The notes under the pieces were generated by a model. That model was not told where the DNA came from, made no database searches, and worked only from the letters and a program-made list of their open reading frames with translations. Both the position numbers and the translations under genes were made by a program. Positions 45,240 to 57,841 of a DNA stretch of 64,000 nucleotides are shown here, piece by piece. How positions within the stretch are numbered: position 1 is the stretch's first letter; each line of letters begins with the position of its first letter. Source of the DNA: Exiguobacterium sp. FSL W8-0210 (GTDB taxonomy: Bacteria; Bacillota; Bacilli; Exiguobacteriales; Exiguobacteriaceae); contig NZ_JBBOUK010000002.1 in NCBI RefSeq assembly GCF_038006045.1, positions 62,001 to 126,000 on the forward strand, read 5' to 3'.

Positions 45240-45584
45240 TTAATGAGAAGTGCTTGTTTTCGTGTCAGCAGATCTTTGATTAAGTATAATTACTCCACCG
45301 ATAATCATAACTAAACCAATAAATGTAAGAATGTTAAATGGTTCATTCCACACCAAAACACCTATTAAAGCTGTCAGAGCTGTTCCTACACCTGACCAGA
45401 TTGCGTAAGCTAAACTTAAAGGCAAAGTTTTTAAAGACAATGATAATGTATAGAACGCTATGAAGAAGCCAATTGCTACTCCAATTGTGGGGTATATATT
45501 CGTAAATCCTTCAGATAATTTCAACATAGATGTTCCGAATATTTCACCAATAATCGCAATTCCTAATGCAACATACCCTTTCAT
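45240..45584 (-). CDS. Small multidrug resistance (SMR) efflux subunit, second of a pair
   Basis: This 114-residue protein has four membrane helices and the family glutamate in AIIGEIFGTSMLKLSEG. Other SMR marks are PLSLAYAIWSGVGTALTALIG and VIILNQRS at the end. SMR pumps work as antiparallel dimers exporting cationic drugs or guanidinium. This paired arrangement is like EbrAB or YkkCD, where both subunits are needed. Ribosome site AAGGAAGG is upstream. It is the last gene of the TetR-SMR-SMR operon. Confidence 0.9.
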   Translation of the reverse strand: MKGYVALGIAIIGEIFGTSMLKLSEGFTNIYPTIGVAIGFFIAFYTLSLSLKTLPLSLAYAIWSGVGTALTALIGVLVWNEPFNILTFIGLVMIIGGVIILNQRSADTKTSTSH

Positions 45585-45601
45585 AATCCATCAACCTTCC
45601 T

Positions 45602-45919
45602 TTAATGAGACAATTTAAGTACCACAACACCAGCTATAATGATTAGTAAGCCAAGTAATATTTTTAGATTAAACTTTTCTTTCCAAACAAGAATACCAAC
45701 AATCGCAGTAAGAGCAGTTCCTGCACCAGACCATATTGCATAAGCAGTTCCTAACGGAATGTGTTCTAATGCTTTGGAGAGAAGGTAAAAAGCACTCCCC
45801 ATACCTATTACTAAACCAACTGTAGGGACTAATTTCTTAAAGCCATTTGATGCCTTCATCATAGAACTTCCGAATACTTCAAATAAGATTGAGCCAATTA
45901 ATAATACATATGGATTCAT
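45602..45919 (-). CDS. Small multidrug resistance (SMR) efflux subunit, first of a pair
   Basis: This 105-residue protein has four membrane helices. The conserved glutamate is in LIGSILFEVFGSSMMKASNG, and the IPLGTAYAIWSGAGTALTA signature is typical of SMR proteins. It lies 17 bases upstream of its partner. A strong ribosome site (CTAGGAGG) precedes the ATG. Together with its partner it should form a heterodimeric exporter of cationic compounds. The substrate cannot be told from sequence. Confidence 0.9.
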   Translation of the reverse strand: MNPYVLLIGSILFEVFGSSMMKASNGFKKLVPTVGLVIGMGSAFYLLSKALEHIPLGTAYAIWSGAGTALTAIVGILVWKEKFNLKILLGLLIIIAGVVVLKLSH

Positions 45920-45930
45920 GTGATATCCTC

Positions 45931-46470
45931 CTAGGTTGTAGATTCAATTAATTTTTCGATGATTTTTTCTCGTAAGTCAAAATTGATTTGTCCCAACTTA
46001 AAGAACTCGGAATAATAAAGACCATCGAGGGTAAGCCGAATTGTTGTTGCTAGTACAGAGTCAATACCATCCTCATCAATTTTTGATTGAATATACTCGA
46101 AGTGGACGAGGATGTTTTCTGTAACAGTATGGTTCAATTTCGAAAAAGAATGAGATGCTATATTTAGAACTTGAGAATTGTTTAAATCATCAGTGTATGC
46201 ATGTATTAAGGCGCGAGTCCATTTTCCTTTTTCTATAGGATCATTCTCAGCTAATTCATTAAATCGGTATACAAAGTCTTGAAAAATTAGTTCAGTTATT
46301 CCAGCATATAATGCTTCTTTTGAGGGGAAATGATACAATAAACCACCTTTGCTAACATTGGCTTGCTTTGCGACTGCTTCTAATGTCAAAGTATCAAAAT
46401 CGTTTGAACCTAAGAGTTCTATTGCAGCATTTAGCAGATGCGCTCTTTTGTCCTGTCCTTTTGCTGACAT
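45931..46470 (-). CDS. TetR-family repressor of the SMR operon
   Basis: The protein has 179 residues from MSAKGQDKRAH at 46470, preceded by AAAGGAGGG. The N-terminal HTH is the TetR type (LTLEAVAKQANVSKGGLLYH, FPSKEALYAGI). The C-terminal ligand domain is helical. It is the first gene of the efflux operon, 11 bases ahead of the first SMR gene. A perfect palindrome inside the promoter is its probable operator, so it likely represses itself and both pump genes until drug binds. An upstream extension to 46530 would start inside the promoter and is rejected. Confidence 0.9.
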   Translation of the reverse strand: MSAKGQDKRAHLLNAAIELLGSNDFDTLTLEAVAKQANVSKGGLLYHFPSKEALYAGITELIFQDFVYRFNELAENDPIEKGKWTRALIHAYTDDLNNSQVLNIASHSFSKLNHTVTENILVHFEYIQSKIDEDGIDSVLATTIRLTLDGLYYSEFFKLGQINFDLREKIIEKLIESTT

Positions 46471-46501
46471 GATTACCCTCCTTTTGTTATTCCATGAGAT
46501 T

Positions 46502-46530
46502 ATTATACCGTCCGGACGGTTTTTTGTCAA
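46502..46530 (-). promoter_or_regulatory. Consensus promoter with TetR operator in the spacer
   Basis: On the minus strand TTGACA (46525-46530), a 17-base spacer and TATAAT (46502-46507) form a perfect sigma-A promoter. The palindrome ACCGTCCGGACGGT (46507-46520) fills the spacer, so bound TetR would block polymerase. Confidence 0.88.
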
Positions 46531-46969: not shown

Positions 46970-47428
46970 GGTGGCGTCTCGAACGCCTACAACATCACTC
47001 CACAGGATAGTACTTTGAACCGTCATGGTGATCAGGCGTACATGGAGGACGTCATCCGCAAGGCGGGTGGTGCGACAAACTTCGAAGCGCAGATCACCTA
47101 TCCGGATGCGTCTACGATGATTCCATCCGCGTATCAGTATACCTATACGGTCCGTGGAAACACCGTCGTCGACCGGTTCAAGAACGGCAATCCGGACGAG
47201 ACGAATGCGGCACTCGGTCTGACGAAGAAGAATACGAAACAAGAACCGGTAGCGAAATCAGCTTCTGGTACAGCGACCAAGGATGTCTCGCGCATCGATA
47301 CCGATGGGAATGGTCAAGTGACGATCCAGGAGGCGAAGGATGCCGGCTTCGCGATGCCAATCACGGAGAAGCACTGGCTGTACCAATATATGCGGGACAA
47401 CGACCATGATGGCATGGTCGGAGAATGA
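46970..47428 (+). pseudogene. 3' fragment of the nuclease gene hit by the transposon
   Basis: The frame is open from GGVSNAYNITPQDSTLNRHG to the stop at 47428 and matches the second half of the intact nuclease at 37336-38238, including NRHGDQAYMEDVIRKAGG and two calcium-loop-like stretches (DTDGNGQVTIQEA, DNDHDGMVGE). It is GC-rich, unlike the intact copy. It has lost its 5' half at the transposon edge and no ribosome site or start remains, so it is dead. A strong terminator follows. Confidence 0.88.
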
Positions 47429-47496: not shown

Positions 47497-47753
47497 ATCT
47501 CCCCGGAACAATGAAATTGATGAGGTGTCGAGAAGTAGATTGAATACGAAAGAAATGAGCACTACAATAAGAACGTATGATCTTATATAATATCGCTAAA
47601 GACTATACTTTTATGCAAATTGATTTGTAATTTTCAATATATTATGTAATTCAAAGATTTAATACCATCTACAATTGCCTAGGTTTTATATTTGTCTATC
47701 ATCGGTATTGGCAAAGAAACTAGGGAATCTATAGTCTAGGAGATGAAGAAAGT
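47497..47753. other. Noncoding gap after the nuclease terminator
   Basis: This AT-rich sequence has no gene. It probably contains the promoter for the next reading frame; no clear -35/-10 pair stands out. Confidence 0.4.
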
Positions 47754-48578
47754 ATGATTAATAAAGAATTATCAAACAAGTTTCGCTCTAACATTAAAGA
47801 AGTGCAAGATTCCCTCTCAAAGATTGCTGAGATTCAACTACATCAAATACGTGAAGCTACTAGAATTATACAAAAGTTTCTTGATCAAATAGACTTAGAA
47901 CTTCTTGAACAGACTTTTATTGATTCTTATGGCTATCTCGGTAAGCAAGCCGAGATAGCAGCAAAACATAATCTCTTTCTGAATATAAATATGCTCGATG
48001 ACATGACACTACCTGAAATACCAGATGTCTTAAATTCAAAGTGGATTATAAAATGAATGGAAATACACTATGATGAAAAGGTTGCTGAATTGATATCAGA
48101 TAATTCTTGTTTCGGAGACACGACGATTCTATTAAAACAATCATATAATGCTTATTTAAGAGAAGATTATGCTATAAGTTTTATAACTTTATATCCTGTA
48201 ATCGATTCGTTCGTTTCACATTGGTACACAAGTATTGATGGAGAGGTAAAGATTTCACCTAACAAACATATCAAGTCACTAGAAAAAAAAGATAAAGATG
48301 ATATAAAAAAAGCACATAAGAAAATCAAGGAAACTCTAAACTCAGGAGAGCGTAACGCTTTGGAACTTCTCTTTATTTCATACGCTTTACATGCGTATTC
48401 GTTGATGAATAGTAATAAAGGACATTATGGCTTTAAAAGACACCATGCTTTACACGGGAGTTTGCAATACACAAGAATACAGCGACAGGACTGTATAAAA
48501 CTTTTCTTTTGTCTATATTCTTTATATTGTTCTCGCGATATACCGAAGAATAAATATATGAGTTTTGATGAAAAGTGA
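47754..48578 (+). pseudogene. Hypothetical gene with an in-frame TGA at 48054
   Basis: Two frames of 100 and 173 residues lie end to end in the same phase, separated only by TGA (48054-48056) and an immediate ATG. The first is helical and coiled-coil-like (VQDSLSKIAEIQLHQIREAT). The second has a compact helical domain (YNAYLREDYAISFITLYPVI, then SGERNALELLFISYALHAYS). No ribosome site precedes the second ATG, so a single ancestral protein of about 274 residues with a nonsense mutation is likely. Alternatives are readthrough or coupled translation of two proteins. I do not recognise the family. Confidence 0.5.
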
Positions 48579-48643
48579 TTAAACTGAAGTAAGCACGAGT
48601 GCCATGAAACAAATTGATGCATCAACCTAGTCTTTTGAAGGAT

Positions 48644-48672
48644 TTGACACGCTGTCTATCGTATCCTATACT
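48644..48672 (+). promoter_or_regulatory. Strong promoter of the AbiF-associated small RNA
   Basis: TTGACA (48644-48649), exactly 17 bases, then TATACT (48667-48672). Transcription should start near 48679, just before the two hairpins. Confidence 0.8.
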
Positions 48673-48679
48673 TAAGTTA

Positions 48680-48748
48680 ATAAATGAGCAGGCTGGATGA
48701 TCCAGCCAACAACGGTCTCTTACCTTTTGGTGAGGGACCGTTTATCAT
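48680..48748 (+). ncRNA. Small RNA with two hairpins upstream of the AbiF-like gene (abiF RNA candidate)
   Basis: Between the promoter and the coding gene lie two stems: GGCTGGA-TGA-TCCAGCC at 48691-48707, and AACGGTC...GACCGTT at 48711-48742 with inner pairs, followed by T-rich sequence. The expected transcript is about 65-70 bases. Structured RNAs called abiF motifs are known directly upstream of Abi_2/AbiF genes and are thought to form RNA-protein systems with them. The position and two-stem layout match, but I have not compared it with the published consensus. Confidence 0.65.
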
Positions 48749-48799
48749 ATCAACCCTACTTTAACTGAAATATACTCTGTCACTTCAAGGAGCCGAACT

Positions 48800-49786
48800 A
48801 TGCCGAAAGCCGAGAAGGTTTTTACCTCAATTACTGATCAATTGAAACTACTACAACAACGTGGTCTCATCATCGATGATCCCGTTTTTGCAGAAGAGTC
48901 ACTCATTCGGACGAGCTATTATGAAATCATCAATGGGTATAAAGATCTTTTTATCGAAGTGGATCAAAAAGAAGAGCAGTTCCTGTCCGGCACGACGTTT
49001 TCCGAACTCTATTACCTCTACGAATTTGATAATGCTTTGCGTTTCGAGATGTTAGCTGCTACATTGAGTGCTGAGAACCTCCTACGCTCCGTCATCGCCT
49101 ATGTTTTAGCCGAAGAACATGGACATAAAAGAGATACATACCAGCAAAAACACAACTATAATCAAGGGAAAAAAATTATGCATGGGCGCTTTAAAGGATA
49201 CTATGAACGGGAGTTGTTGCTTCAATTTTTTGATGAAGTGTATCAATCATCACATCAACCGATGAAATACTATCGCGAGAACTACCGCGATCTTCCACCT
49301 TGGATTCTCGTTAAAGGACTGAGCTTCGGCAACCTGCAATATCTATTCAAGCTCATGCTACCTTCTTCGAAGACGAAAATCATTGCGCGTGCAACCGGTT
49401 TGAATCCGGAGCTGATCACGGAACAGACGAAACAAAGTTTTGCAGAGATATTTGATATACTCGTCGCCTATCGCAACTGGGCAGCACATGGAGGACGCGT
49501 GTATAATCATCGCGTCAAGAAAAAACTGACATTTGGTCCTACACATGCTGCGTTCAATCTATCTCGCTCCGCGTACCAAAAACATCGTTATGGTCAAAGC
49601 GATATTTTGAGCTTTATTATCGCGCTAACACAGCTTCGCGATCGTACCATCACGGAGCGATTCACTCAATCCATCACTAAAGAAATGGTAGACTATCTGA
49701 TTCGTTTCCCTCAACATCAATCAAGTTTACTCGAACAAATGAACATCCCGACTTCACTTTTCCAAGAATTGCGACATCGCTCCTGA
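48800..49786 (+). CDS. AbiF/AbiD-like (Abi_2 family) HEPN RNase
   Basis: This 328-residue protein has ribosome site AAGGAG before the ATG. The N-terminus (FTSITDQLKLLQQRGLIIDD, then SLIRTSYYEIINGYKDLF) is diagnostic of Abi_2/AbiD/F abortive-infection proteins. The HEPN RNase signature RxxxxH appears as YRNWAAHGGRVYNHR near residue 225. Such proteins cleave RNA on phage infection. AbiF-type members work with a small structured RNA encoded upstream, and one is present here. The gene is intact, and it is one of the few intact defence genes in this region. Confidence 0.88.
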   Translation: MPKAEKVFTSITDQLKLLQQRGLIIDDPVFAEESLIRTSYYEIINGYKDLFIEVDQKEEQFLSGTTFSELYYLYEFDNALRFEMLAATLSAENLLRSVIAYVLAEEHGHKRDTYQQKHNYNQGKKIMHGRFKGYYERELLLQFFDEVYQSSHQPMKYYRENYRDLPPWILVKGLSFGNLQYLFKLMLPSSKTKIIARATGLNPELITEQTKQSFAEIFDILVAYRNWAAHGGRVYNHRVKKKLTFGPTHAAFNLSRSAYQKHRYGQSDILSFIIALTQLRDRTITERFTQSITKEMVDYLIRFPQHQSSLLEQMNIPTSLFQELRHRS

Positions 49787-49863
49787 CTTACTAAATTGAC
49801 AAAGTATATCTATTTAAAAAAATCTATTCTATCTTCGCTTAATTGAATTCTGATTTTAAGCAT

Positions 49864-49896
49864 AAAGAGAGAATACCTAATTGGTTTTCTCTCTTT
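49864..49896. terminator. Bidirectional terminator
   Basis: AAAGAGAGAA and TTCTCTCTTT form a 10-bp stem between the abi gene and the converging toxin gene. Confidence 0.7.
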
Positions 49897-49913
49897 TCCT
49901 TCGGGCATAATTA

Positions 49914-50726
49914 TTAATTTTTTATCCCGAGATCTTCTAATTCAGAATCGTAAGACGGGTCATCTAGAATTTCTTCAGCCGTCTCTTTCGCTTCTTTTAT
50001 GATACTTGTTCTCTCCTTTAACGATAGCTGACCTAAAAATTGACTTTCAGTCATTCCGTTTGGAAATGCAGACCCCTCTGATGTCCCACTATTTTCTTCA
50101 ATATTATTAAGGGATGCAAGCTTCATCGAATTAGAGTCATCTCCCTTAACCATGAATGCTTGAACTTGCATGTTTGAACTTGAGGATTTTGTAGGTAAGT
50201 TTTTGTTATTATAGTAATTGATTCCTCTAATTATACTTGTCTGATCATTAGGATCATCAAAATATGATTTGTACCATTTAATTTTGGCAGTTTCACTAAA
50301 GATTTGTACAGCACCTGCAGCAGTTTTCAATTGAGTAGTAGTAAAGCCTGCAAATTTCCCTACATAACCATAATGCATATTCCCTAAATCTTCGCCTTTC
50401 ATTGTGCGACCACCGAAAACGTATCTTTCGGTCGCTCCATAAGCATGCTTGTAATCCCATGGTCCTCTACTCTTTACTTTGCTAGCAAAAAAACGACCCG
50501 TTCCAACAGGAAAAGTTATATCTGCAATCTTATATTGATAAGCTCTTGCAGCATTTTTTAACATGATCGATGAAAATGAAGAAGTCACGTTCCCTCCCGG
50601 ATTTACTACACCGTAAGCACTTACCGTTCCTTCAGCAGATTCTGCTTCTTCAGCTTTAACACTTGAATACGAACTTACTGTAATAGCTAACAAAGCTAAA
50701 GACGATATTAAAATACTTTTTTTCAA
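49914..50726 (-). CDS. Secreted polymorphic toxin, type-44 domain
   Basis: The protein has about 270 residues, most likely from the TTG at 50726, 6 bases after AAGGGGAG; an in-frame ATG at 50744 is also possible. A signal peptide ends near VKAEE. The central region (NAARAYQYKIADITFPVGTG, then WDYKHAYGATERYVFGGR, then LGNMHYGYVGKFAGFTTTQL) matches the bacterial toxin 44 (Ntox44) pattern of predicted nuclease toxins. A Ser/Asn-rich C-terminal extension follows. A small membrane protein gene diverges from it and may confer immunity. Confidence 0.75.
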   Translation of the reverse strand: MKKSILISSLALLAITVSSYSSVKAEEAESAEGTVSAYGVVNPGGNVTSSFSSIMLKNAARAYQYKIADITFPVGTGRFFASKVKSRGPWDYKHAYGATERYVFGGRTMKGEDLGNMHYGYVGKFAGFTTTQLKTAAGAVQIFSETAKIKWYKSYFDDPNDQTSIIRGINYYNNKNLPTKSSSSNMQVQAFMVKGDDSNSMKLASLNNIEENSGTSEGSAFPNGMTESQFLGQLSLKERTSIIKEAKETAEEILDDPSYDSELEDLGIKN

Positions 50727-50838
50727 TTTAAGCTCCCCTTTCATTGGTATATGCTATAGGATAAAATTATTAATAGAAATACTGTTTTTTACAAAAGGAG
50801 TATATCTATTTTTAAATATTTGTAAGAGGAGGACAGAA

Positions 50839-52224: not shown

Positions 52225-52941
52225 TCAATTTCTTGATAATGCGTGAGTGACACGATAACTGTCACCCGTGAAGGTTAAAATGTGCGCATGATGGATCACG
52301 CGATCGACGAGTGCTGACGTCAATCTTGGATCTGCGAAAACACGATTCCATTGACTGAATTCTAGATTTGAAGTGATGATGATGCTTTTCTTTTCGTACC
52401 AGTCTGTTATGAGATGGAAAAGGAGCTCTGCTGACTCTTTGGATAATGGAAGATAGCCCATTTCATCTAAGACGATCAGGTCCGCAGAATCGAGACGTGC
52501 GTGGAAGCTACTCAGCTTTCCATCACGCCATGCTTTGGTGAGTTGCTCTACGAGCTCCGAAACACGAAAAAACCGCACCTCCTTTCCTTTACGACAGGCT
52601 TCCCGTCCTAAACCAATCGCAAGATGTGTCTTCCCAGTGCCAGGGGCACCTGTGAGCACCACGTTTTGTTGATGATCGATGAAAGAGAGCGACATTAATT
52701 CTTCTTTCTTGAGATGACGGGGAAAGTAAATGTTGTCATGCCAACGATAGTCTTCGAGCGATTTGTTATTGATGAACTTTGCTTTTTTTATAAGTCGCTC
52801 TGCCTTCGCTTCTTCACGAAGCCTCATCTCCATTTCAAAAAGTGTCAGGAGAAACGTCTCGGACGATTCCATCGGAATCGTTTCGTAAATTTCAGCGACG
52901 TAAGCGAGCCGAAGGGATTTGCACATCTCTTTTAGATTCAC
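52225..52941 (-). CDS. istB: IS21-family IstB helper ATPase, copy A
   Basis: This 238-residue AAA+ ATPase, related to DnaC, delivers target DNA to the transposase. Walker A is LTGAPGTGKTHLAIGLG and Walker B is DLIVLDEMGYLPL. The sensor motif ITSNLEFSQW is present. It starts with a GTG overlapping the istA stop, as usual for IS21. The protein is intact. Confidence 0.94.
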   Translation of the reverse strand: MNLKEMCKSLRLAYVAEIYETIPMESSETFLLTLFEMEMRLREEAKAERLIKKAKFINNKSLEDYRWHDNIYFPRHLKKEELMSLSFIDHQQNVVLTGAPGTGKTHLAIGLGREACRKGKEVRFFRVSELVEQLTKAWRDGKLSSFHARLDSADLIVLDEMGYLPLSKESAELLFHLITDWYEKKSIIITSNLEFSQWNRVFADPRLTSALVDRVIHHAHILTFTGDSYRVTHALSRN

Positions 52942-54374
52942 GACTGCACCTCACTCTGCCACGGTCGATTCAAACTGTCATACTTGCTCCAGTCGACATC
53001 GTAGGGGTGCTCTTCGATGTCAGAATAGGCATCGCTTTGGCTCAGTAGCTCATACAATCGTTCATCGATTTCAGTGATTGAATGCAGGACTAATCTAGAC
53101 CGTAGCCATCCCAGTCTTTCTTTACGTATCATCAGATTTTGGATGTTCAGATACTCTCGAATTCGTCCAGGGAGGTACTCCGCGTGACGTGAATGACCAT
53201 AACTACGTGGCTTTTTGTACCATTCGTTGAGAATGCTTTCCCAAGGTAACGCCCGTTTCGTCATCATATAAGGTCGTTTTTCTTCGTACAGGATTTCTCC
53301 ATGACGAGAAATGATTTTCATATCGTCCCATTTTAGGATTGCTCTCACTTGTCCATGTCGGGAACCCGATGGAACGAGAATCTTTGTTTGATCGATGGTC
53401 ACTTCTCCATATTTGTTCACCTTCAAGAGTTCCTCTCTAAACACTGGAAAATCTTCTTCCGGCAGTCGAAGGAGGTGCTTCTGCTCTTCCACAACGAGAT
53501 CTTTGATCCGTACTTTCTTTTCGTAATGGATACGTTCCATGTCATCCCTGAGGGATGATGCGAGGCGCCGATTCAACGACTCGAAGTCATTCATGATAGG
53601 AGAAGGAACTAGGAAGTTGTAACGGACATAGCCGACCTTGTTTTCGACGCTTCCTTTCTCATTCCCACTGTACGGATTACAGCTTTGAACCTGGAAACCA
53701 TAGTGCGCCACGAATTGCTGAAAGGCATCCGTATAAACGGCTTCTTCTTTTGTTGTCCGTACTTTAGCGACAGCTGCCGGGAGATTGTCGATTCGTAATT
53801 GTTGCGGCACGCCTCCGATTTCTTCGAACAGTCTCTTCAATCCGGTCAGGAAACATTCCTGGTTCTCTGCTGGTAATGCAACCGCAGCTGTTCGATTGCT
53901 ATATGGCATGGATAGGATCAAGCAATGCACATCGACCGCATGACTATCCTTCACGACTTCCATGACACCAAAATCTACTTGTGCTTCTCCGGGAGGGTGG
54001 GCCAATCGTTCGAATCGACTATCGTTTTCTACATCGCGACCTAGTCGCCATTCTTTTATAAATTGACAGACGGTCCGGTAGGACCCTTCAAATCCATATG
54101 TACATAAGGTCTCATATAGTTTTTTATTGGTTCGCCGTTGTTTCTTTTTCATCATCGCATCTTCCTGTAGCCAGTCCTCAATCATCTCGCCCCAACGGGT
54201 GCCATACATCATGCCTCGCTTGGAAGAAGAACTTTCTTTTGGTAGAAAAGACTCATCGGCATATTTTTTAGCAGTTCGCCAGTTCAGGTTAAGATCTTTC
54301 GCGATTTTATTGATGGAATAGGATTTATGGTTCCTTAAAAATTTGATACAATTGATTTCGGACATTGTTAGCAT
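52938..54374 (-). CDS. istA: IS21-family IstA transposase, copy A
   Basis: The protein has 478 residues; I chose the ATG at 54374, 9 bases after AAGGAG. Upstream in-frame codons run into the IS end. An N-terminal HTH (NHKSYSINKIAKDLNLNWRT) is followed by the integrase core with acidic residues in AQVDFGVMEVV, LRIDNLPAAV and GNEKGSVENKVGYVR. All motifs are intact, so the element could be active. Confidence 0.94.
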   Translation of the reverse strand: MLTMSEINCIKFLRNHKSYSINKIAKDLNLNWRTAKKYADESFLPKESSSSKRGMMYGTRWGEMIEDWLQEDAMMKKKQRRTNKKLYETLCTYGFEGSYRTVCQFIKEWRLGRDVENDSRFERLAHPPGEAQVDFGVMEVVKDSHAVDVHCLILSMPYSNRTAAVALPAENQECFLTGLKRLFEEIGGVPQQLRIDNLPAAVAKVRTTKEEAVYTDAFQQFVAHYGFQVQSCNPYSGNEKGSVENKVGYVRYNFLVPSPIMNDFESLNRRLASSLRDDMERIHYEKKVRIKDLVVEEQKHLLRLPEEDFPVFREELLKVNKYGEVTIDQTKILVPSGSRHGQVRAILKWDDMKIISRHGEILYEEKRPYMMTKRALPWESILNEWYKKPRSYGHSRHAEYLPGRIREYLNIQNLMIRKERLGWLRSRLVLHSITEIDERLYELLSQSDAYSDIEEHPYDVDWSKYDSLNRPWQSEVQS

Positions 54375-55405
54375 TCCTTTCATCTCCTTAACGTTCTTGT
54401 TTCGCAACTTAAACGTTAGGATGAAGTTGTGGGTGCTGGCAAGTCCTTTTCTTTTTTCGCAAAAGGAGTGCAGAACTGTGTACGTTTCCGTCGCACAAGT
54501 CTGCACTCCTATTCTGCATTACACACACGAGTAAGCGTATGAGCGTTCACTTTGCTTTTAAAAGATTGTTATGTATACATTGTTGATATCTATTTATTTA
54601 ACTTTTTTATTGCAATAGATATCGTTTTAACTGTCTGTCTTGGAATGCCTCTCTTTATCCATGTACACTTCTTCACAGTATTTATATAAAAAACCAAAGA
54701 AAAGACGTACCCATTTCGACATCGAAACGTATACATCTTTTCCTTTGATTGCCTCTCGCTTCATATTCTATCTATGTGTTCATAAAAATGGTTCATGTCC
54801 GAGGACGAATAGACTTGAAAAACTTTCAAACCACATTCCGCTTCACGATATAGTGTCTTTGTAAATTCGTGCAAAAATCATTCAATGTATGTTGACGGAT
54901 CAATACTTCTTCTTCGTCGTAGTTAATGACATGTAGATCAGCATCTGTAATCACTTCAGGATATTCTCATCATCACTACAAATCAAGTCAGCGCTAAATA
55001 GGCGAGCTAAAACAAGGCTATGAACCTCTCCTAGATTGCTTGTGTGTTTGAGTGGACACCCTTCTCGTATTTTCTTTTTTGTCGAGTTGTTCAAATGCTA
55101 TTCGCACTTCTTGCAAGTATACAAATAGAAATCATATAGTGTATCAGTTTCAACCGATACGTCGCCTTCCGGATTAAATAGAGTCCATCTACCTTACGCT
55201 ATCAGTACATCAACTTTTTCTCTCACTGAAGAAATTTTTAGTTCTTCTAATACTTCAACATGAATAAGGATACGTCGATACAAACGATTCAACCAATCAA
55301 AAACAGCAACTTGCCGAAAACTTGTTGTATGGATGATGATGTTTGCATCAATGAATACAGGTGTCGACGTCAAGTAGAAATTGACGTTTTCTGCTCGATT
55401 GATAT

Positions 55406-56164
55406 TTACACTTCTGTTGAAAATAAATTCTTACGATTTCTCATGCGATGACTGTCGTCATCGCTATGAATCACTTCGACACGATGTAAGAGACGGTCTA
55501 ATATTGCAGTTGTGATTCCTTGATCACCAATTAGTTCGCCCCATTGATCCGGACTTTTATTCGAGGTTAGAATAATTGAGCTTCGTTCATACAGATGATT
55601 GATAAGATGGAAGAATAGATTAGCTTCTCTCTGATCCATCGCCATATACATCAAATCGTCAACGATGACGAGATCGGATTCTCTCAAACGCTTTAGTTGA
55701 ACTTTAGACTTATTAGAAAACTCCTCCGATTTCAATAAGTGAATCAACTCACCCATCGTAACGAAAAATACTCTGTATCCACGTTGGACAGCTTCTAATC
55801 CCAAGCCGACTGCTAAAAACGTTTTGCCGACGCCAGGCGGACCGAGTAGGATTAAGTTATAATGCTGCTCGAGCCAACTCAATTCGATCAACTGCTTCAA
55901 TTGTCGGCCCGTCAGGGCCGTTTGTTCATCAATTTTAAATTCTGATAATGGCTTCAAAAAAGGGAAGCGAGCCCATTTCATACGTCTTTCTAAGCTCTTC
56001 GCTTCTCGTTTCTCCCGTTCATGACGTGTGATGGCTTCGAGAAACTCTAGATACGTCCAAGATGATTTCTCAGCTTCTCGTAAAATCTGTGGAAGCGCAT
56101 CGGCGGTCTCCGCCAATCTCAACTGTCTGAACTGCTGTTGTAAGTCTGTCACGGTCTGATTCAT
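55406..56164 (-). CDS. istB: IS21-family IstB helper ATPase, copy B
   Basis: The protein has 252 residues from the ATG at 56164, overlapping the istA stop. Walker A is LLGPPGVGKTFLAVGLG, Walker B is DLVIVDDLMYMAM and the sensor is LTSNKSPDQWGE. It is only distantly similar to copy A, so the two elements arrived separately. The frame is intact. Confidence 0.94.
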   Translation of the reverse strand: MNQTVTDLQQQFRQLRLAETADALPQILREAEKSSWTYLEFLEAITRHEREKREAKSLERRMKWARFPFLKPLSEFKIDEQTALTGRQLKQLIELSWLEQHYNLILLGPPGVGKTFLAVGLGLEAVQRGYRVFFVTMGELIHLLKSEEFSNKSKVQLKRLRESDLVIVDDLMYMAMDQREANLFFHLINHLYERSSIILTSNKSPDQWGELIGDQGITTAILDRLLHRVEVIHSDDDSHRMRNRKNLFSTEV

Positions 56165-57699
56165 CACACGTCTCCTCTCAAGATACTGACATACGTACTT
56201 AACGGACGTGTGTTCACTTGGATATCAGAAACATGTTTTCCGATGGAATGGACACGTGATTCCGCGATCGGACTCGTATTCGAACTCAGGTAACGTGCGA
56301 CGTCTCGAAAGTCATTCGCGCTGTATAGCTTCTCCTGTGTACATTTCTCGAGTGACTGGTCCAATTGCGGACCATAGTCATGGATGACATTTTCGATGAT
56401 CGCTAACTGCTCACGCTTGTAGCGCGGAAATTTTTTGCAGAGTTCTTCCAAGTAATGCGTGGCTTTTTCCTCATCCGTAAAGTGGCCGGTCAGATGTTGT
56501 TTAAGCTCGTCGATGCCATGTGAACGATCCCTTAGATGATGACGGCTCTGAATCAATTTCCCTCTTTCTGAACTGACGGGATGATCCGCAATCACTTTCC
56601 CTTCCGGCTGTGTCCGGATGAGCAGTCGGTTAGCGTCAGTCAACTCGATAAAGACGGTGTTGGCCGCATAGGAAGAATAGGTCCCGAGAGGGACTGAATA
56701 ACGATTGGAACGGTATCGAATCGTATTGTCCTTGCTAACGTTCCTTGCTATACTCGACACATGGGTACTTTCATATGAGAGTAACGAATGGACCGGTTGT
56801 AAGTGTTGTTTTTCGAAGGAGAACACTTCAGCTGGTCTTTTTTTCGTTGTCTGATGGACATTATGATTTCCTGTCCGTGCTAGCCACTGCGACGCCCGTC
56901 GATTCCAATCTTCGATGTTCGAATACACACGGCTATCCGCAAAGTTTCCTTTGATATACTTGACGACGTTCTCGATCATTCCTTTAGATTCTGGGTCCGC
57001 ACGCCTGCACAAATGGACGTTGAATTTTCTTTGCTGCACATATTGTTGGAATTCAGAGGTCAATAGGAGTTCACCTGCATTTTCACTGACCGCAATCAGA
57101 TGATCTTGATCGTAGACAATTTCGGTTGTCCGTCCGCCGTAAAACTGGAAGGCATTCTCATGACAACGTATAGCGTCTCGTGTCGTGAATGGTCTGTTCT
57201 GCCACTCCATATACTTCATGCGAGAGTGAGCGAGCACGAAAGCGATGAAGTATAACTTGATTTCTTTGTTACTCTTCGTTCTTTGCTTCGTTTCTCCCCA
57301 GTCAACTTGGAGTTGTTTTCCCATCGGTTGTTCAGGAATCGCCTCGTATTGGCGTACCTTCCGTTTTTTATCGATTTGATTTACTTCGCGTATTTCTCTG
57401 ACATACGTCCTGACGGTGCTTCCACCGACTAGAAGTTCCGGATATCTTTCCAGTAACCAATCATGGATTTGAGCGCTGCTGAGGTGTGGGAACTCCTCTA
57501 ACCAGGCTACTATCCAGTCTTTGTACGGATCCAACTTTTTGACCCTCGATTGCGATAACTCTTCTGAATGACTTTTCACTTCTTCGAAAGTCATGTTCAA
57601 ATACTTATAGACCGTAGGTCTTGAGATTTTAAGTTCTTTTGCAATTTGAGCAATCTTAAATTTTTTTTGATATAACTGATGGATTTTGATATGTAGCAT
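56164..57699 (-). CDS. istA: IS21-family IstA transposase, copy B
   Basis: The protein has 511 residues. The preferred ATG at 57699 follows TTGGAGG by 8 bases; a TTG at 57744 would extend it. The N-terminal HTH (KKFKIAQIAKELKISRPTVY) precedes the integrase core with QVDWGETKQR, IVYDQDHLIAVSEN and PESKGMIENVVKYIKG. All motifs are intact. With istB it forms a complete IS21-family operon. Confidence 0.94.
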   Translation of the reverse strand: MLHIKIHQLYQKKFKIAQIAKELKISRPTVYKYLNMTFEEVKSHSEELSQSRVKKLDPYKDWIVAWLEEFPHLSSAQIHDWLLERYPELLVGGSTVRTYVREIREVNQIDKKRKVRQYEAIPEQPMGKQLQVDWGETKQRTKSNKEIKLYFIAFVLAHSRMKYMEWQNRPFTTRDAIRCHENAFQFYGGRTTEIVYDQDHLIAVSENAGELLLTSEFQQYVQQRKFNVHLCRRADPESKGMIENVVKYIKGNFADSRVYSNIEDWNRRASQWLARTGNHNVHQTTKKRPAEVFSFEKQHLQPVHSLLSYESTHVSSIARNVSKDNTIRYRSNRYSVPLGTYSSYAANTVFIELTDANRLLIRTQPEGKVIADHPVSSERGKLIQSRHHLRDRSHGIDELKQHLTGHFTDEEKATHYLEELCKKFPRYKREQLAIIENVIHDYGPQLDQSLEKCTQEKLYSANDFRDVARYLSSNTSPIAESRVHSIGKHVSDIQVNTRPLSTYVSILRGDV

Positions 57700-57841
57700 T
57701 AACTTTTCCTCCAACGTTTTTCCCTCCAGATCAAATAATGACAATCACTATTTTACTAGAGTTCTAAATAAATTGAGCAAAAGTGTAAAGCGTCATCGAG
57801 CAAAAACCGTCAACTAAATTCTAGCGGTTACAACAGGTTCC

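Follow-up and report, generated by a model that had tools for sequence, protein, structure and literature searches.

A probable plasmid-borne AbiF-type toxin-antitoxin module with a two-hairpin upstream RNA in Exiguobacterium

Analysis of a 64,000-nucleotide Exiguobacterium sequence (positions 62001-126000 within a contig of 128,436 bases, hereafter the window) identified a locus that is probably a plasmid-borne AbiF-type toxin-antitoxin module, in which a short upstream RNA would bind and neutralise a predicted HEPN RNase, acting as in known AbiF systems. The observations behind this reading are a promoter match, the RNA structure, an HEPN protein and its fold, the genetic linkage of RNA and gene, and their conservation. 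For transcription, binding, neutralisation, RNase activity and trigger we infer the following course. A single promoter would give rise to a short transcript, some 65-70 nt long, comprising a leader, hairpin 1 and a terminator-like hairpin 2, and a minority of transcripts would continue into abiF. The Abi_2 protein would dimerise and cut RNA through its HEPN motif, resulting in cell arrest, but in an unperturbed cell abundant RNA would bind the protein and block its activity, keeping the pair silent. Phage take-over or plasmid loss would lower the amount of RNA and free the toxin, leading to abortive infection and/or plasmid retention; both plasmid retention and phage defence are plausible roles. 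The initial annotation had proposed that the RNA is the partner or inhibitor of the AbiF-like protein, a proposal to which both comparative genomics and the AbiF systems already characterised lend good support.

The locus begins with a sigma-70 (SigA-type) promoter sequence on the forward strand (48644-48672) that consists of a -35 box TTGACA (48644-48649), a 17 bp spacer and a -10 box TATACT (48667-48672) and matches the consensus at 11 of 12 positions. In a scan of 47600-50000 this site ranked top among 11 promoter-like sites, confirming the near-consensus promoter previously noticed ahead of the gene. The number of sites was not above chance (11 observed versus 8.0, sd 2.8, in shuffles), so support for the promoter comes from its match and its conservation, TTGACA being kept in four of the five same-family sequences, counting that of the window, whereas in L006 it is disrupted. 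The first transcribed base would lie at about 48679, within a segment (48673-48690) that comprises the start of the RNA and a short 5' leader without base pairing and is identical between the window and the relative L326 at 13 of 18 positions. The predicted fold then shows hairpin 1 (48691-48707; 7 bp with a 3-nt UGA loop), the proposed toxin-binding element, a linker AAC separating the hairpins (48708-48710), and hairpin 2 (48711-48742; 14 bp with a 4-nt loop), which is terminator-like; all lie on the forward strand.

The region 48679-48750 folds at -35.7 kcal/mol (z = -7.6) and none of 200 shuffles was equally stable, in agreement with the two hairpins that the initial annotation had placed after the promoter. 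It had also described them as having a T-rich end, and here the hairpins proved strong while the tract did not: the window's T-rich end is TTTATCATATC, the U-tract after hairpin 2 is weak (TTTAT, 48741-48745), and a strict terminator scan did not call hairpin 2 of the window. A better tract was present in four same-family relatives (TTTATTTTATA in three and TTTATTTTATG in one). Hairpin 2 is proposed to end the RNA and to limit read-through into the toxin gene. The promoter scan found no promoter-like site between hairpin 2 and the ATG, and therefore the toxin would come from read-through. The layout is that of an AbiF-type module, with a promoter, a structured RNA and a terminator-like hairpin upstream of and co-directional with the gene and no second promoter, albeit with a weak U-tract.

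Downstream of the RNA, a likely ribosome-binding site (AAGGAG, 48787-48792) precedes an intact forward-strand ORF (48800-49786), an abiF/abiD-like (Abi_2) gene encoding a 328-aa predicted HEPN RNase toxin. The product matched the Abi_2 profile (PF07751) at 2.8e-32 (112.9 bits versus a cut-off of 25.6) and was called AbiD by PADLOC (3e-43). Its HEPN motif RNWAAH occupies residues 225-230 (49472-49489), and R225, N226, H230 and R233 were invariant in all 51 aligned sequences, the window's included. An AlphaFold2 model (36 homologues; pLDDT 95.8, pTM 0.90) was compared with the PDB by Foldseek, where the sole match of this predicted fold at E <= 0.001 was 8vz6, "PbAbiF dimer bound to ncRNA" (1.5e-8). 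Structural re-alignment with 8vz6 gave Z 21.8 and rmsd 2.7 over 284 residues at 22% identity, indicating that the modelled protein shares the PbAbiF fold, and residues 210/215 of 8vz6 are the counterparts of R225/H230 in the pairwise alignment. PbAbiF was reported to be inactive once R210/H215 are changed (PMC12373285). By profile, motif and AbiF fold the window protein is a member of the Abi_2 / AbiF-AbiD HEPN group, and its earlier description as an intact Abi_2/AbiF protein with an RxxxxH HEPN motif is correct. The lactococcal AbiD, AbiD1 and AbiF proteins belong to the same protein group according to the PADLOC AbiD model, and AbiF was first found on an L. lactis plasmid, as stated in PMC12373285.

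The rows that followed 8vz6 in the structural re-alignment were chains of Cas13d (Z 8.2, 7.1 and 6.9) and Cas13b (Z 5.0), and no other HEPN family ranked high among the matches listed, which excludes nothing. Cas13 and the modelled window protein thus have an HEPN RNase fold in common, and such kinship would suit a Cas13-like system in which the HEPN protein uses the RNA as a guide to recognise target RNA. We consider this reading highly improbable: Z values of 8.2-5.0 are weak alone and lie in a range where a common helical arrangement could account for them, and no spacer-like segment is evident in an RNA composed of a leader, a hairpin, a 3-nt linker and a second hairpin. Cas13 moreover carries two HEPN domains per chain according to PMC12373285, whereas the window protein has one and was seen without a guide-like RNA, and in PMC12737573 AbiF is presented as a toxin kept in check by an RNA antitoxin, with guiding assigned to Cas13e. 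The connection to RNA-guided enzymes drawn in the initial annotation is retained as one of ancestry, and the window RNA itself gave no sign of being a guide.

The association of the RNA with the gene was evaluated in 38 same-family genomes using a pattern of the RNA core with a constant stem and linker and a free loop. Exact matches were present in five of the 38, as a single copy in each, and a reversed control pattern gave no match in the same genomes. These five are exactly the five genomes that have an abi gene of the window's lineage; three further same-family genomes encode a more distant Abi_2 protein and are without the RNA core. DNA homology around the gene (blastn) is confined to RNA plus gene in the two intact relatives, extending over 48678-49750 in L326 and 48673-49710 in L327. 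The two ORFs just upstream of abi and the one just downstream were not found in 12-13 kb around the relatives, with the exception that a segment of the third upstream ORF (47015-47428) matches L326 and L328 at 73-74% identity over 48 and 35 residues, placed elsewhere relative to abi. Comparison with a relative whose protein is 74% identical gave identities of 33% (27/83) upstream of the promoter, 62% in the promoter, 72% in the leader, 80% in hairpin 1 and linker, 85% in hairpin 2, 56% in the spacer and 69% in the coding region, the hairpins being better conserved (80-85%) than the coding sequence. Judged by these comparisons, RNA and gene are a shared module that is inherited together.

A chance arrangement, in which the unrelated terminator of an upstream gene and a hairpin happen to lie beside a solitary Abi_2 gene, could draw on the co-directional ORF 48057-48578 that ends 65 bp before the -35 box, and on the finding that a hairpin followed by a terminator-like hairpin, promoter disregarded, occurred at 45 of 250 upstreams of neighbouring ORFs. 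It is strongly disfavoured, as the promoter separates this ORF from the hairpins, the two ORFs that precede the module in the window were not found near the relatives whereas RNA and abi were, and the linkage holds in five of five genomes and in 50 of 52 members of the wider clade described below.

Two of the genomes with an intact RNA core (G003 and G013) have a broken abi gene. Both share a junction after ...PPWILV, with about residues 172-257 including the HEPN motif missing, and G003 has an additional frameshift; the loss counts as one event because the junction is shared. Removal of the catalytic region while the RNA is kept is in line with a toxin that would be costly if uncontrolled. 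A second, diverged copy of the RNA, which the exact pattern did not match and which precedes roughly the first 20 abi codons, was observed some 6 kb away in G003 (L329, L331) and G013 (L328, L330). Partial DNA matches to the RNA in G020 and G021 were rejected, being by eye an unrelated terminator-like stretch.

For a wider survey of Abi_2 loci, a search from the single window protein returned nothing in either collection, while homologue alignments succeeded. A total of 301 loci had a tblastn match; removal of those with less than 150 nt upstream and of identical upstreams left 200 distinct ones, and removal of near-identical upstreams left 174 non-redundant loci; L001 and L009-L012 had been left out beforehand as duplicates, fragments and one distant copy. 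A full set, consisting of a promoter, hairpin 1 and a terminator-like hairpin in the 220 nt ahead of the gene, was identified at 101 of the 174 loci, a count lowered by start codons that were set by rule and are wrong in some cases (L181, L013). The remainder comprised 13 loci without the promoter, 28 with the terminator-like hairpin only and 32 with none of these elements. In comparison, the full set appeared in one of 522 dinucleotide shuffles and upstream of three of 250 other ORFs in the same loci, this neighbour control consisting of ORFs of at least 90 aa with 100 nt free upstream and not of proven genes.

Phylogenetic analysis of 167 proteins of at least 280 aa (midpoint-rooted) placed the window in a clade of 52 tips (support 0.988) nested within one of 93 tips (0.984), although the node inside the smaller clade that joins the window to other members had a support of 0.261 only. 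The full arrangement was present in 50 of 52 members of the window's clade, with the two misses showing it by eye, and in 76 of 93 members of the larger clade. The initial annotation had named homologues consistently lacking upstream hairpins as evidence that would count against it, and these frequencies, with 32 of 174 loci lacking a terminator-like hairpin by the rule applied, are contrary to that expectation. Among the 50 scored members of the 52-tip clade, the distance from the -10 box to hairpin 1 was 15-21 nt and hairpin 1 occurred as 43 distinct parsed sequences.

These sequences also bear on an explanation in which the RNA would be a cis-acting leader or attenuator only, ending transcription before the toxin gene, possibly in response to a signal, and never binding the protein. 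The terminator-like character of hairpin 2 and the lack of a promoter-like site from there to the ATG are compatible with this view, and premature termination in cis is one of the two roles reported for the C. difficile RNA RCd22 (PMC12373285). A plain terminator needs no hairpin 1, yet the core stem of this hairpin is unchanged in the five same-family copies, where all six core pairs are identical, and it exists in 43 versions across the clade; in addition, the solved relative binds ncRNA directly, as stated in the title of 8vz6. An RNA that acts in cis alone is therefore unlikely, and an antitoxin that also binds the protein remains our preferred reading.

Other clades mostly had other upstream sequences, according to class labels that are crude motif expressions. 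Three further kinds of sequence were noted directly upstream of Abi_2 genes: a single GAUC..hairpin (L019, L029, L013, L007 and L032), a CUACGGGG hairpin (L192, L193 and L205) and a CTTACAGT stretch without a clear hairpin (L015, L018 and L027). The Spy779816 sRNA (RF02589) was located just downstream and antisense of abi in L042 (2332-2437), L017 (2502-2589) and L041 (2446-2550), all on the reverse strand; it was above the cut-off in L042 only and adjoins an integrase gene in L041 and L042.

Covariation within the same-family copies was limited. In hairpin 2 of the five copies 97.1% of cells were paired with both-side changes in 2 of 14 pairs, and the covariation of these five alone was weak (35 of 500 shuffles scored as high). 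Hairpin 1 of the more distant relatives was found to covary between genera. When 31 relatives were aligned with model R2, an alignment fitted to a structure that had been drawn by hand from the seed rows, both-side changes occurred in 18 of 19 pairs with a covariation score reached by none of 500 shuffles, and hairpin 1 was 99.4% paired with both-side changes in five of six pairs. Hairpin 1 was 100% paired, again with both-side changes in five of six pairs, in the MAFFT seed of 16 (two of 18 rows left out), the rows of which were picked for a 3-nt loop. Four same-family sequences, kept as hold-outs, and 10 other loci (hand list) that were badly parsed or off-group had been left out of the relatives' RNA set, as were six loci with antisense matches together with L072 and L253, after which 31 of 32 sources matched. 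When 45 relatives were simply aligned with MAFFT, misregistered hairpins left RNAalifold without a structure, and model R1, derived from that alignment, had no base pairs and was not used.

Models R2 and R3 were built without Exiguobacterium sequences. With default filters, neither model found the window RNA in the 64-kb window, where unrelated sites reach 18.9 bits, or matched four same-family relatives (L003-L006). In an unfiltered targeted scan of 271 nt the top match was full-length and in the right register (48678-48745, E 0.0022) at 16.6 bits, below the 18.9 bits of unrelated window sites; the corresponding scan of L003 gave a full-length top match of 20.0 bits, likewise in the right register, and the highest scores at two loci with other RNA types were 2.5 and 5.8 bits. 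R3 was evaluated on 30 sources, among them 15 clade loci outside its training set, of which L253 was discounted for having the same RNA as the L065 training row. It matched the upstream RNA in 9 of 14 clade loci (five at E <= 0.03, two near 0.07 and two at 1.8-1.9), with no match at the RNA in L014, L066, L067, L164 and L277, in any of four same-family loci or, at the RNA position, in any of 11 loci with other RNA types. Chance matches arose elsewhere in L019 and L067 (two each) and in L004 and L072 (one each), and the E-values of some were better than those of the weakest true matches. The protein tree and the layout place the window RNA in the two-hairpin class of its clade, to which it would belong on these grounds, while by covariance model its membership is not proven.

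The initial annotation had named the lack of a match to the covariance model of the abiF RNA, to be sought at 48670-48760, as evidence that would count against it, and that outcome was obtained. RF03085 was absent from 48560-48830 up to E = 10, and no Rfam family reached its gathering score anywhere in the window. The positive controls, phage phiC2 of C. difficile and the Exiguobacterium plasmid pMC1, scored 37.6 and 38.0 bits. Upstream of abi, RF03085 was found in none of 20 loci of the window's clade, where only two tRNAs turned up, in none of seven same-family loci, and in none of 18 further loci (five of the wider two-hairpin clade and 13 with other upstream sequences, none of which reached an Rfam cut-off). 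Membership of the window RNA in RF03085 was ruled out by this lack of a match while both control loci matched. The RF03085 model is narrow, since it matches in phiC2 and pMC1 and in none of the 20 clade loci or 18 further loci. Of the RNAs that precede Abi_2 genes in this data set, a small part is represented in Rfam, as 2 of 55 different Abi_2 loci scanned whole, the window's own included, reached the RF03085 cut-off.

The C. difficile AbiF protein was reported to be toxic and to be neutralised in cis and in trans by the upstream RNA RCd22 through direct binding (Saunier et al., PMC12373285), and the same source describes RCd22 action as depending on stems rather than on their sequence, and the HEPN Arg/His pair as needed for AbiF. 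As described there, AbiFCd/RCd22 of C. difficile prophage phi027 and phage phiC2 resembles the window locus in its Abi_2 HEPN toxin with an Arg/His pair and in the order of a SigA promoter, a short structured RNA, a terminator and the toxin gene, with no promoter between terminator and gene. RCd22, in contrast, contains two RF03085 motifs and a separate terminator and measures 98 nt (major form) to 132 nt (PMC12373285), whereas the window RNA lacks an RF03085 match and has one hairpin and a terminator-like hairpin within about 65-70 nt. The window protein is 27% identical to the phiC2 homologue, and AbiFCd/RCd22 is reported from a prophage lysis module as opposed to a conjugative-type plasmid contig. 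According to PMC12737573, each PbAbiF monomer has one RNA and is inhibited by nucleotides of the RNA.

Classical type III systems (ToxIN, CptNI, TenpNI and AbiQ) are similar to the window locus in having an RNA antitoxin ahead of the toxin gene with a terminator between them. Their toxins form the ToxN group and are not known to be HEPN proteins. The antitoxins carry tandem repeats, unlike the window RNA, at which no repeats of this kind were seen and the exact core of which occurs once per genome in five genomes. Classical type III (ToxIN-like) membership was rejected on the lack of a tandem-repeat RNA antitoxin and on hairpins that are unlike each other. The structures of classical type III toxins and antitoxins also differ from those of AbiF, according to PMC12373285.

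The term unusual, applied to this defence system in the initial annotation, was an overstatement, as AbiF RNA-antitoxin modules are already known. The principle of a protein with an RNA antitoxin has been established for C. difficile and PbAbiF, and it is the RNA type that differs. This type is unmatched by Rfam 15; it is set apart from Rfam 15 alone and may be covered by the AbiF RNA covariance models, including a "diverse" one, attributed to Zilberzwige-Tal et al. (via PMC12804078). Experimental work on an AbiF RNA was represented, among the matches listed, by a single paper, PMC12373285, besides reviews and PMC12804078. Low-to-moderate phage resistance has been attributed to seven S. thermophilus systems including AbiD (Kelleher et al., via PMC12322248).

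We tentatively suggest, as possible rather than probable, that the clade represents a separate non-Rfam class of AbiF antitoxins, with a near-fixed leader, a hairpin that varies between lineages with its pairing kept and a terminator within the RNA, and that each RNA is specific to its own toxin. A fast-changing hairpin of conserved shape would make the antitoxin specific to its own toxin, and modules could then not silence one another; if true, this would apply to phages and plasmids that carry different AbiF modules. AbiF modules have been proposed as the ancestors of Cas13, and PMC12737573 treats it as an open question how an RNA antitoxin became a guide RNA. A second clade-wide and compact two-hairpin RNA type would provide a different starting point for RNA recognition by HEPN RNases, and the members of the clade are ready pairs for testing antitoxin cross-neutralisation.

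The contig is likely a conjugative-type plasmid because genes for a T4SS coupling protein, a MobL relaxase and an ArdC-like antirestriction protein are present at 1913-33060 of the window. The same region also contains metal genes, including a P-type ATPase, a multicopper oxidase and a histidine kinase. Convergent with abi, an ORF on the reverse strand (49914-50744) encodes an Ntox44 toxin domain (PF15607, 2.6e-17) with a signal-peptide-like N-terminus by eye, and was not found in the stretches around relatives. Adjacent small membrane ORFs at 45240-46530 resemble, by eye, an SMR efflux pair and are accompanied by a TetR regulator. Two IS21-type pairs lie in a row at 52225-54506 and 55406-57744, with IstB identified by Pfam in both and the IstA-like partner by Pfam in the second and by position in the first. 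Among the relatives, the abi gene of G018 is flanked by a type I restriction-modification operon (hsdS/M/R) on one side and a helicase gene on the other, and that of G016 lies beside a caspase-domain gene.
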